Shown: one piece after another, positions 32,914-54,239 of the stretch
Layout of the letters: each line of letters begins with the position of its first letter
Numbering within the stretch: position 1 is the first letter of the stretch
Assembly (NCBI GenBank): GCA_028693165.1
Contig: JAQUVX010000010.1
Location: 1-64,000 of the forward strand
Source: Lachnospiraceae bacterium
Lineage (GTDB): Bacteria > Bacillota > Clostridia > Lachnospirales > Lachnospiraceae
Reading direction: 5' to 3'
Length of the DNA: 64,000 nt
Notes under the pieces: generated by a model
What the model was told of the DNA's origin: nothing
Seen by the model: the letters and a program-made list of their open reading frames with translations, nothing else
Database searches by the model: none
Made by a program: the position numbers and the translations under genes

Positions 32914-32975
32914 AAAAAAATTACCTCCTTTGCAGACCACTCAAACTACAAAGGAGATAATAATCTATCCTCTTC

Positions 32976-33085
32976 GCAGCGGGATGCGGTCTGTGTACCG
33001 CAAGAGATCTTCTTCGTTCTCTTTTCGTCCGGCTGGCAACTCCCTGTCCAGCTGGCACTTAACGCACACAGGCCTACTCTGCTTC
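32976..33085 (-). ncRNA. THF riboswitch controlling folT
   Basis: On the minus strand the leader shows the class conserved blocks in order: AGAGTAG, GCGTTAAGTG, a GGGAG-containing arm, ACGAA, then GCGGT and CCGCATCCCGCT closing P1 against GAAGCAG. Sequence and spacing agree with the tetrahydrofolate riboswitch class found before folT in Clostridia and lactic acid bacteria. Binding of THF would lower folate uptake, probably by hiding the ribosome site, since no terminator stem is evident. Confidence 0.92.
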
Positions 33086-51293: not shown

Positions 51294-52697
51294 ATGAAAC
51301 AGTTTATGGGTAAAGATTTTCTGTTGAGTACCGAGTCTGCAAAAACATTATTCCACGATTATGCCGAGAATATGCCGATCCTGGATTATCACTGCCACAT
51401 CAACCCGAAGGAGATCGCAGAGGACCGCAAGTTCGACAACATCACACAGGTATGGCTGGGCGGCGACCATTACAAATGGCGTCAGATGCGTTCCAACGGT
51501 GTGGAGGAGAAATACATTACCGGCGATGCAAGCGACCGTGAGAAATTCCAGAAATGGGCTGAGACCCTTGAGAAGCTGATCGGCAACCCGCTGTACCACT
51601 GGAGCCATCTGGAACTGCAGAGATATTTCGGCTACACCGGTCACCTGTGCGGCGATACCGCGGAAGAGGTATGGAACCTCTGCAACGAGCAGCTTCAGAA
51701 CAAATGGAGCGTTCGCAGCCTGATCAAAGCTTCCAACGTAACCCTGATCTGCACCACCGACGATCCGGTCGATTCCCTGGAATGGCACAAGAAGATCGCC
51801 GAGGACACCACCTTCGACGTACAGGTTCTGCCGGCCTGGAGACCGGACAAGGCCATGAACGTAGAGAAACCGGATTTTGCAGCTTACATGGCAACGCTCT
51901 CTGAAGTAAGCGGCACTGCTGTCAAAGATTTCGCTTCCCTGAAGGAAGCACTGAAAAACCGCATGGCGTTCTTTACAGAGAACGGCTGCTGCGTATCGGA
52001 TCACGCACTTGAGTATGTGATGTACGCTCCTGCTTCCGACGCAGAGGTAGATGCCATCATGGCAAAGGGCCTTTCCGGACAGGCTGTCACCAAGGAAGAA
52101 GAACTGAAATACAAGACCGCCTTCATGCTGTTTGTCGCAAAAGAATACAACCGAATGGGATGGACCATGCAGCTTCACTATGGCTGCAAGCGTGACAACA
52201 ACGCTTATATGTATGAGAAATTAGGCGCAGACACCGGCTTCGACTGCATCAACAACTACGCTCCGTCCGCACAGATGGCAGATTTCCTGAATGCACTGAG
52301 CGCGACCAACGAGATTCCGAAAACCATCATCTACTCCTTAAACCCGAACGACGACGCTTCCATCGGCACCATCCTCGGCTGCTTCCAGGATGCGACCTGT
52401 GCCGGCAAGCTTCAGCAGGGTTCCGCATGGTGGTTCAATGATCACAAGGTAGGCATGACCAATCAGATGACCAGCCTGGCAAACCTCGGCTGCCTGGGCA
52501 ACTTCAACGGAATGCTGACCGACTCCAGAAGCTTCCTCTCCTACACCAGACACGAATATTTCCGCCGCATCCTGTGCGAGCTGATCGGCGGCTGGGTAGA
52601 AAACGGCGAGTACCCGGATGACCAGAAGGCTTTAAAGGGAATTATTGAGGGCATTTGTTATAAGAATGCTGTGAAGTATTTTGGATTTAAGCTGTAG
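51294..52697 (+). CDS. uxaC: Uronate isomerase (glucuronate/galacturonate)
   Basis: Converts D-galacturonate to D-tagaturonate and D-glucuronate to D-fructuronate, the entry step of the pathway. The 467 residues have the amidohydrolase-fold motif DYHCHINPKEI, the QVWLGGDHYKWRQMRSNGV block, TTDDP and MQLHYGCKRDNN. AAGGAGG before the ATG. The following tagaturonate or fructuronate reductase is not in the window. Confidence 0.96.
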   Translation: MKQFMGKDFLLSTESAKTLFHDYAENMPILDYHCHINPKEIAEDRKFDNITQVWLGGDHYKWRQMRSNGVEEKYITGDASDREKFQKWAETLEKLIGNPLYHWSHLELQRYFGYTGHLCGDTAEEVWNLCNEQLQNKWSVRSLIKASNVTLICTTDDPVDSLEWHKKIAEDTTFDVQVLPAWRPDKAMNVEKPDFAAYMATLSEVSGTAVKDFASLKEALKNRMAFFTENGCCVSDHALEYVMYAPASDAEVDAIMAKGLSGQAVTKEEELKYKTAFMLFVAKEYNRMGWTMQLHYGCKRDNNAYMYEKLGADTGFDCINNYAPSAQMADFLNALSATNEIPKTIIYSLNPNDDASIGTILGCFQDATCAGKLQQGSAWWFNDHKVGMTNQMTSLANLGCLGNFNGMLTDSRSFLSYTRHEYFRRILCELIGGWVENGEYPDDQKALKGIIEGICYKNAVKYFGFKL

Positions 52698-52722: not shown

Positions 52723-52759
52723 GGGGAACCGCCTAGTTGTTTGGGTGGTTCCCTTTTTT
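52723..52759 (+). terminator. Terminator after uxaC
   Basis: GGGGAACC pairs with GGTTCCC (with extension CGCC/GGTGG) followed by six T. Confidence 0.9.
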
Positions 52760-52792
52760 ATGGATTGGCGGGGGTACGGCGATTCAGACAGT

Positions 52793-52903
52793 CAGAGGGG
52801 GCGCAAAAACGCGCTCTCGCTCCGCTTGAGACGTAGGGGTGCTAAGCGTGCAAACTACGCACGCTAAGAACCCACGTCTCAAAGGGTTTTTGCGCCCCCT
52901 CTG
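52793..52903 (+). repeat. Nested palindromic element, copy 1
   Basis: A 111-base structure with three concentric stems. Outer: 18 perfect pairs, CAGAGGGGGCGCAAAAAC (52793-52810) with its complement at 52886-52903. Middle: TTGAGACGT (52826-52834) with ACGTCTCAA (52874-52882). Inner: AGCGTGC with GCACGCT around a 7-base loop (52845-52865). A 15-base unpaired strand GCGCTCTCGCTCCGC (52811-52825) is on one side only. The core matches copy 2 in the opposite orientation. No protein is plausible in it. Confidence 0.85.
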
Positions 52904-53057
52904 CCCGCTTCATCACCTGTCTCTCCCTGCACCCATGAAAAAGCCAATACGAGTTTCGCGTTTGAAACATTCCCCGACTCGATGCATACATACCTAACCC
53001 AAGCAGTTCAACCAGCAAGTTAGGGACGCTCTTCCACTATATGGTTGAGAATGCGCA

Positions 53058-53198
53058 GGAGGTGAGGGCGGCAGGGGGGAGAATGAAAACCCTTTGTGAC
53101 GTGGGCACTTAGCGTGCGTAGTTTGCACGCTTAGTACCCCTACGTCACAAGTGGAGCGAGAGCGCGTTTTCAGGCTCCCCCCTGCCGCCCTCACCTCC
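53058..53198 (-). repeat. Nested palindromic element, copy 2
   Basis: A 141-base structure in the opposite orientation to copy 1. Outer: 24 perfect pairs (53058-53081 with 53175-53198, including GGCGGCAGGGGGGAG), then AAAAC/GTTTT. Middle: TTGTGACGT (53094-53102) with ACGTCACAA (53142-53150). Inner: AGCGTGC with GCACGCT around 7 bases (53111-53131). The conserved unpaired strand (GCGCTCTCGCTCCAC on the minus strand) is at 53151-53165. The 154 bases between the copies show no gene. Confidence 0.85.
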
Positions 53199-53309: not shown

Positions 53310-54239
53310 ATGCAAAAATTAATTTTATCCTTTTTCCTGAGTGCGGGAGTTATCATGCTTTCCGGCTGCTCAGGTTCTAATATGACACCAGTTCATCAGG
53401 AGATTTCGGCTGGCCGTGCGGCACCGGCTTCTCTTCCGGGCGTTGAGGCCGGTTCGCAGACTGATTCGGCTGACCCGGCTGATTCTTCTCGCACAGCGAA
53501 GGCAGGCAGCGAAGCCGATTCTGTCACCAGTGCTCCTCACATGATTTTCATTCGCGGGCTGTGTCTCACGGACACCGGACGGGAAGCCTATGTGACCTGC
53601 GGCACAACGGATGGCGAGATTACCGCGGTGACAGCGGACGACAAAGCACCGGAAACGGATGGCGAGGCCAACTTTGATTGTATCGGTGCTCCTTATATTG
53701 CGCTTGCCGACGGAGCTGCCGCCGTTCTTTTAGACGACCGCTATCAGTTGTTTTTGGCGGATAATCTGGTGGAGTATCAGGGTGTCTACAAACAAAAAAA
53801 AGACGTGTCTGCCGACACGCTGAAATGGTTGGATTTCTATTATACCATGTCCGAGACAGAACGCGATGCGTTGTCCATGGTCCCCGATGAATTTTCGGAA
53901 GCCCTCAGCAGCAGCCTGGCTGCCGTCGAGACCGCCAGTACGGATACCTCCTATCTCAGCGAGCTGACTGAGGAGGAACTGTCTGAAACCGAAGCTCTGG
54001 CACAGGTCTATTTCACGGAGGATGTCCCGGTGTTTGAGGGCGTTGATCAGATCTATCCGCTGGACCGTGATGCACTCTATCACAATGTCGGCCTGGAGGG
54101 CGAATACGCCCCCGGCAACATCATCATCTACAAGGTTTTGACCGTCAAGGATCGCCGGGATGGCAATCCATTCCGTTCGATCAGCATTGCCCGCAGGACC
54201 AAATCTGATGCCTGGAAGATCATCAACTGCGGATACTGA
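53310..54239 (+). CDS. Putative lipoprotein of unknown function
   Basis: A 309-residue exported lipoprotein: residues 1-20 are a signal sequence ending in the lipobox LSGC, so Cys20 would carry the lipid. A Ser/Ala/Asp-rich linker (residues 25-75) leads to a domain of about 230 residues that I do not recognise; it is acidic, with stretches such as LYHNVGLEGEYAPGNIIIYK near its end. A TATAAT at 53283 and GGAGG before the ATG support expression. It precedes the KdpDE-like genes convergently. Confidence 0.8.
   Translation: MQKLILSFFLSAGVIMLSGCSGSNMTPVHQEISAGRAAPASLPGVEAGSQTDSADPADSSRTAKAGSEADSVTSAPHMIFIRGLCLTDTGREAYVTCGTTDGEITAVTADDKAPETDGEANFDCIGAPYIALADGAAAVLLDDRYQLFLADNLVEYQGVYKQKKDVSADTLKWLDFYYTMSETERDALSMVPDEFSEALSSSLAAVETASTDTSYLSELTEEELSETEALAQVYFTEDVPVFEGVDQIYPLDRDALYHNVGLEGEYAPGNIIIYKVLTVKDRRDGNPFRSISIARRTKSDAWKIINCGY

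Follow-up and report, generated by a model that had tools for sequence, protein, structure and literature searches.

What are the two large palindromes that lie close together, in inverted orientation, in a 64,000-nucleotide stretch of DNA (here called the window) from a Lachnospiraceae bacterium? The original prediction had considered a mobile palindromic element, a structured RNA, and a nucleoid or recombination site. On the evidence given below, they are probably two copies from a family of non-autonomous mobile palindromic DNA elements of the Lachnospiraceae, resembling REPINs and MITEs, but larger and built around an asymmetric core.

Anatomy of the palindrome pair

The palindromes (111 and 141 bp) were found, with a common core, at the places and with the stems that had been predicted for them. 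In a repeat search the two copies aligned over 119 nt with 82% identity, and their outer arms were unlike in both sequence and length. The unpaired, conserved strand of the prediction was present: the 13-mer GGAGCGAGAGCGC was exact in both copies, and its 15-base version carried the one change named there. The strand bearing GGAGCGAGAGCGC is referred to as R; it is the minus strand for copy 1 and the plus strand for copy 2. On R the copies point apart, and the prediction that they point towards each other describes the same layout on the opposite strand. The features of the pair are as follows.

52793-52903, R = minus: copy 1, 111 bp; 52778-52917 with its outer hairpin extension (repeat search, folds)
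52797-52900, minus: covariance-model match of copy 1, 87 bits
52793-52810: left outer arm of copy 1, pairing perfectly (18/18, 18 bp) with the right arm
52886-52903: right outer arm of copy 1, partner of 52793-52810
52811-52823, minus: conserved strand GGAGCGAGAGCGC of copy 1, with the GC-GAGA-GC mini-hairpin and without a match on the opposite arm; kept in both alignments
52826-52882, minus: middle and inner stems of copy 1, with loop (repeat search, fold)
52904-53057: spacer between the outward-pointing copies, 154 bp; not common to the other pair spacers compared
53058-53198, R = plus: copy 2, 141 bp (repeat search, fold)
53076-53179, plus: covariance-model match of copy 2, 89 bits
53094-53150, plus: middle and inner stems of copy 2, with loop (repeat search, fold)
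53153-53165, plus: conserved strand GGAGCGAGAGCGC of copy 2, exact match

The middle stem of copy 1 (52826-52837 against 52871-52882) was complementary at 11 of 12 positions, and its inner stem, AGCGTGC, closed a loop of 7 bases. By folding, pairing in this copy reached beyond the named ends, to about 52778-52917. When the sequences were shuffled, none of 200 shuffles folded equally well. The z-scores were -8.8 to -14.6 for folding as RNA, and -10.3 and -13.7 for folding as DNA.

The pair is flanked on one side by uxaC (51294-52697; Pfam UxaC) and on the other by an ORF (53310-54239) for which Pfam gave no match. A terminator-like hairpin (52723-52754) follows uxaC, upstream of copy 1; the count of such hairpins was not above that in shuffles. 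The spacer had been predicted to be free of genes, and no ORF of ≥80 aa was found in it. It had also been predicted that the palindromes match no ordinary terminator or riboswitch. In agreement with this, no Rfam family reached its gathering score over the window pair, nor did Rfam match the element at that score at 8 other loci. Relaxing the threshold to E values up to 10 added, for the pair, a single Brucella sRNA and otherwise only eukaryotic microRNA hairpins, none of these reaching its gathering score. An Rfam structured RNA family was thus rejected as an identification, the element also showing no preference for G-U over A-C (see below). Elsewhere in the window, a THF riboswitch was detected at 32975-33083 on the minus strand (86.4 bits).

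Distribution, pairing and movement

A covariance model (R1) was built from 51 copies and used to search the source genome and other Lachnospiraceae, as had been suggested. Nine copies were detected in the source genome: two on contig C23, one each on C6, C14, C11, C28 and C36, and an outward pair on C19; further copies were also found there by blastn. At E ≤ 1e-5, the element was present in 60 of 150 Lachnospiraceae genomes (60 of 149 genera; own genome included), many of the carriers having at least 20 copies, with up to 26 candidates scored per genome. In a draw from the whole class, 7 of 245 genomes were positive and all 7 were Lachnospiraceae, that is, 7 of the 9 family members (identified by list order) against 0 of 236 others. 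With stricter filters and few scored candidates, the family and class counts are lower bounds. A pattern scan of named genomes gave at least 117 stretches; the 80 titles listed were Lachnospiraceae, Eubacteriaceae, Clostridiaceae, other Clostridia or simply 'bacterium'. Compared with the covariance model, an exact 16-mer search (9/397) and blastn within the genus (3/24) understated the spread. Chance or a local duplication, the latter named by the original prediction as its possible undoing, was rejected on these copy numbers and on the shuffles, none of which folded as well.

A phage or plasmid origin was without support: the window element (one query) had no match in a phage collection, and one element from the genome G420 (one query) had none in a plasmid collection. 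The 16-mer occurred in 15 viral contigs, none of which held the full element by regular expression. In all, 152 element instances were collected by pattern, of which at least one (L077) resembles a chance match. In a separate stretch (L016; G000 contig 30, 1-5000), a repeated segment was noted with an ORF of charged heptad-like repeats (ERAKEERQKVEERAKEDRQ); its matches to the element were weak and chance-like only.

The element is dispersed, probably mobile hairpin DNA, present in a large share of Lachnospiraceae, often in many copies. No published description of it was found in Rfam or in the open-access literature searched; the motif string occurred in 3 papers, none of them with a title on bacterial repeats. 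The element is apparently undescribed.

The arrangement of neighbouring copies was strongly biased. Of the neighbours within 1 kb, 32 pointed outward and none inward, while 4 shared a strand; all 32 of 32 opposite-strand neighbours thus pointed apart, with a median gap of 195.5 bp. These pairs are not all independent, since a pair unit of about 420 bp (85-89% alike) occurs three times in one genome. The count omits opposite-strand echoes of the palindrome, duplicates, a 65-bp partial at L053 that would add a tandem, and contig-edge matches in L121, one of which would count as a further divergent pair. In six genomes (G283, G229, G600, G080, G110 and G083), outward neighbours were seen at distances of up to about 1.3 kb, and G202 had a single inward pair, separated by more than 2 kb. 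No conserved spacer was found between unrelated pairs; whole pair units do recur in some genomes. Head-to-tail arrangements were observed at two places: three element copies with a 164-bp period (L339; G133 contig 59, 125296-125728), and a 65-bp piece, containing the 3' half of the element, repeated three times (L053; G160 contig 146, 9572-9717).

Of the copies, 130 had ORFs on both sides. The suggestion that copies sit between convergent genes held only as a bias: 24 were flanked by convergent ORFs, 12 by divergent and 94 by tandem ones (54 and 40 by orientation). On the 3' side of R, the 3' end of the neighbouring ORF faced the element in 78 of the 130 copies and an ORF start in 52; for the 78, the median distance from the core end was 72-80 nt (two classes). 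Copies were also seen between seemingly co-transcribed ORFs, named by eye: urease (L114), murE/murF-like (L059) and infA/rpsM-like (L045).

Movement was examined in two related MAGs, G419 (JAAUZU) and G420 (JAIDHX), each with dozens of copies. The unit in G420 was bounded, with a length of about 208 bp and the inverted ends TAGGTAATTGCGAAACTC (29 copies shown). The same terminal inverted repeats were present in G419, and some copies of G133 carried GTGTCAAAAGCCC, as judged by eye. When three G419 loci were compared with G420, one (L098) was free of the element in G420; at the empty site the two flanks shared a 16-bp overlap, partly element, in which 14 of 16 positions matched. When twelve G420 loci were compared with G419, 4 aligned across the junction and 8 were split by 197-415 bp. 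The element of L226 was absent from G419, and the site was clean, with an 8-bp overlap (AAAGATAA/AAAAATAA). L230 showed a 10-bp overlap, with about 30 extra bases at the element-free site. At L235 and L238 the 'empty' genome retained the ends of the element, indicating deletion. Clean sites therefore numbered two (L098, L226) of five element-free sites, and the direct repeats (8 bp at L226, a 16-bp overlap at L098, 10 bp at L230) are imperfect and vary in length. Because sites in G419 and G420 differ in presence of the element, with short direct repeats at the two clean ones, the element moves or has moved recently, although precise excision could mimic the two clean empty sites. Together with the copy numbers above, these occupied and empty sites support the option of a mobile palindromic element.

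The exact 14-base end was located at 17 places in G419 and G420; 16 were palindromes of this kind, one was left unresolved, and no gene-sized unit was flanked by this 14-mer. Neither the end search nor the neighbouring ORFs gave an autonomous element, a parent insertion sequence or a dedicated transposase. Among 1263 ORFs beside copies, no recombinase or transposase was recognised in the 30 largest clusters on visual inspection of the first 110 residues. The Y1 transposase domain (PF01797) was missing in 3 of 11 element-bearing genomes (G393, G419 and G422; draft assemblies), G420 gave a match below cut-off, and 11 of 16 element-poor genomes had the domain. Y1/RAYT as the present mobiliser is unsupported, given the three carriers that lack it.

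Half copies at L049, L055 and L066 had suggested a clean 5' truncation like that of a retroelement; L055 and L066, however, seem to retain bases of the outer 5' arm, and internal deletion fits equally. A second palindrome family (H2), with the core GGGCTCCGAAGCAGTGGCAAGTCGCCC, has ends (AGGTAATTGCGAAA) in common with the element. It was found in G419/G420 (L074 1925-2040, L168, L355, L357, L360), often 5' of the element. It was rejected as a universal part of the element, because only 17 of 152 copies had its motif nearby, compared with 2 that had it downstream. In Brotaphodocola catenula (G001), a Lachnospiraceae of the same genus as the window, two loci (L031 and L036) carry a further repeat of about 113 bp (87.6% alike). 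On the R strand it lies some 190-320 nt upstream of the core, and it contains inverted stretches, among them GATTTTGCCGAT..ATCGGCAAAA.

Core, arms and the level at which the fold is kept

Each copy (~110-210 bp) is one long interrupted hairpin, of which 78-97 bp form the conserved core. The core consists of three stems, a bulge of two bases, an internal TTA/TTA loop, and GGAGCGAGAGCG, present on one side only, with the GC-GAGA-GC mini-hairpin. In order, an outer arm of variable sequence is followed by RACCC, a middle stem with 8-10 pairs, ACGY/RCGT and, on the 3' side, the bulge, mostly CT. After these come CGG/CCG with a short stem, TTA opposite TTA and a terminal stem whose length varies; CGGAGCGAGAGCGNGT and the second arm close the series. 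In the alignment, the invariant or nearly invariant bases were mostly unpaired or one-sided.

Covariation was assessed over 138 distinct rows. Pairs were formed in 94.1% of the cells, and both sides changed in 22 of 26 pairs. There were 669 cells with changes on both sides, against 186 in shuffles, and the covariation score was 0.479, compared with 0.175 for shuffled rows and at most 0.086 for slid structures. None of 500 shuffles attained any of these measures.

Such covariation is what an RNA under selection would give, and the element may be read as transcribed, R being a small RNA or the opposite strand a 3'-UTR element. We regard this as unlikely. An RNA under selection would tolerate G-U on its own strand and not A-C. 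In the core, G.T (43) and A.C (38) were about equally rare among 3106 cells, even though the alignment used for the count had been fitted with an RNA model. By contrast, the acceptor and T stems of tRNAs from the source genome (22 distinct, from the best 30 of 49) gave 20 G.T and 1 A.C among 264 cells (Fisher p 2.6e-4, inexact since the cells come from related copies). One column contributed 9 of the 43 G.T and another 17 of the 38 A.C; without both columns the counts were 34 and 21. Since G.T and A.C are thus about equal in the core, unlike in tRNA, the fold looks, from these sequence counts, to be kept at the level of DNA rather than RNA. The option of a structured RNA is accordingly not favoured, G.T exceeding A.C on neither strand as it does in tRNA.

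A looser count over the outer arms gave 193 G.T and 306 A.C of 6353 aligned cells on R. This excess of A.C, equivalent to G.U on the opposite strand, leans towards that strand and to that extent speaks for an RNA, but the count includes fixed mismatches of internal loops. The many copies that face an ORF 3' end at a short distance would also suit an RNA, as would a nearly identical element in two rumen genomes (L089/L110), where the adjacent intergenic DNA could hardly be aligned. This constancy is as if the element were under selection, and counts against neutrality. Against an RNA stand the presence of copies in both orientations between tandem ORFs, their polymorphism in place between G419 and G420, and the absence of the element, at the threshold used, from 90 of the 150 family genomes.

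The outer arms behaved differently from the core. In nine copies from G109, core identity was 0.99 and arm identity 0.67-0.69 (55% for random 25-mers by the same measure), while pairing of the arms was 0.80 within a copy and 0.62 across copies. In G039 the core was 0.86 and the arms 0.63-0.65 identical, with pairing of 0.83 for own arms and 0.54 across copies. A copy's own arm was its best partner in 13 of 13 cases for G039, 5 of 9 for G109, 9 of 15 for G001, 6 of 29 for G420 and 6 of 12 for the JAAVZR set, which is a type and not surely one genome; the counts other than that of G039 weigh against the favoured reading. The arms are therefore unlike between copies of one genome, yet complementary within each copy.

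Of twelve presumed orthologous pairs between G419 and G420, 8 were aligned and 4 had no element on one side by expression. In L225/L254 and L231/L259, whole stem blocks were exchanged on both sides, a pattern expected of gene conversion with another copy; orthologous copies also differed by single compensated pairs.

Mechanism and comparison with known systems

For the mobile DNA element that we favour, the following course of events is proposed. A mobilising enzyme supplied in trans would recognise the fold, in the form of extruded or single-stranded DNA. Outward pairs may arise through joint movement of a copy with its partner, in the manner of REPINs. Gene conversion among copies could hold the cores similar; in the arms, template switching during replication of the hairpin could preserve the pairing, by copying a change in one arm into the other. 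The element most likely has no host function, and intergenic copies may affect mRNAs.

A more specific version, which we put forward only as a speculation and consider rather doubtful, is that the identity of the element is a three-dimensional fold of single-stranded DNA. A candidate enzyme would read the asymmetric core (the bulge, the TTA/TTA loop and the GAGA mini-hairpin) on one strand, and the arms would be renewed for each copy, by template switching or at insertion. If true, this would be a system of transposition or recombination separate from those of RAYT, integrons and classical MITEs.

It is improbable that the element is instead a folded recombination site like the attC of integrons, at which a recombinase binds one folded strand through its unpaired bases and exchanges DNA between copies. 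The asymmetric unpaired bases being the best conserved part, selection on the fold as DNA and not on sequence, the three-copy array in G133 and the flanking of unrelated spacers by outward pairs would all agree with such a site. The short direct repeats at clean sites, however, are typical of transposition; ends inspected by eye had no conserved GTTRRRY/RYYYAAC boxes, and no recurrent recombinase gene was recognised beside copies. Least of all would we expect the host to have spread the element as a transcription terminator or mRNA stabiliser: copies do lie near gene 3' ends, but there is no conserved T tract on the 3' side, ORFs that seem co-transcribed (genes named by eye) have pairs as well as single copies between them, and uxaC already has a terminator-like hairpin of its own, of a kind not above shuffles.

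The element is a common genome component of a major family of gut bacteria, and provides a natural system for watching the arms of a hairpin stay complementary over evolution. A simple wobble count separates selection on a DNA fold from that on an RNA fold; annotation of structured RNAs by covariation would otherwise mistake the element for RNA. The results also point to a putative mobilising enzyme.

REPs and REPINs are described as non-coding, dispersed, intergenic palindromes, often near gene 3' ends (PMC3116915, PMC3733652), and inverted doublets, the REPINs, as the moving unit (PMC3116915). REPs measure 20-40 bp and carry a GTAG or CGTC tag, those with GTAG going with RAYT transposases. 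The words 'Firmicutes', 'Clostridi' and 'Lachnospir' are all missing from the main text of PMC3733652. The present element resembles REPINs in being a dispersed non-coding palindrome with over-represented inverted doublets (32 divergent, 0 convergent and 4 tandem). It differs in its size of 110-210 bp, its conserved asymmetric core, the lack of a fixed tag and insertions bordered by short direct repeats. In some genomes (G133, the JAAVZR type), though not in others, the hairpin is followed by CGTC, and the RAYT test failed on the three of 11 draft assemblies without the Y1 transposase. Because tag, size and dependence on RAYT all fail, the element was not filed as a REP.

Bacterial MITE-like repeats (ERIC/IRU, RUP, Correia) are non-coding palindromes of 100-200 bp with terminal inverted repeats and, in part, target duplication; the conserved part of MITEs is their ends. 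Our element likewise has terminal inverted repeats, but its core is common between genera while its ends differ between them, and the search of G419 and G420 with a single 14-mer end gave no parent insertion sequence. With the parental element and conserved ends failing, it was not filed as a MITE.

The attC sites of integrons fold from one strand of DNA, with conserved extrahelical bases and drifting stem sequence, and are bounded by the 7-mers GTTRRRY and RYYYAAC (R'/R''). The element shares the fold with conserved unpaired bases and drifting stems. In the ends inspected by eye it lacks conserved R'/R'' boxes; it has direct repeats at insertion, and combines a conserved core with variable arms, the reverse of attC.

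Replication template switching has been described, in RNA genes, as a source of both-side changes without G-U intermediates (PMC8794818). The both-side changes of the element fit this description, although PMC8794818 deals with RNA genes and the process is proposed here for a mobile DNA hairpin. The element is thus REPIN- or MITE-like in its behaviour, and is filed as a member of neither.
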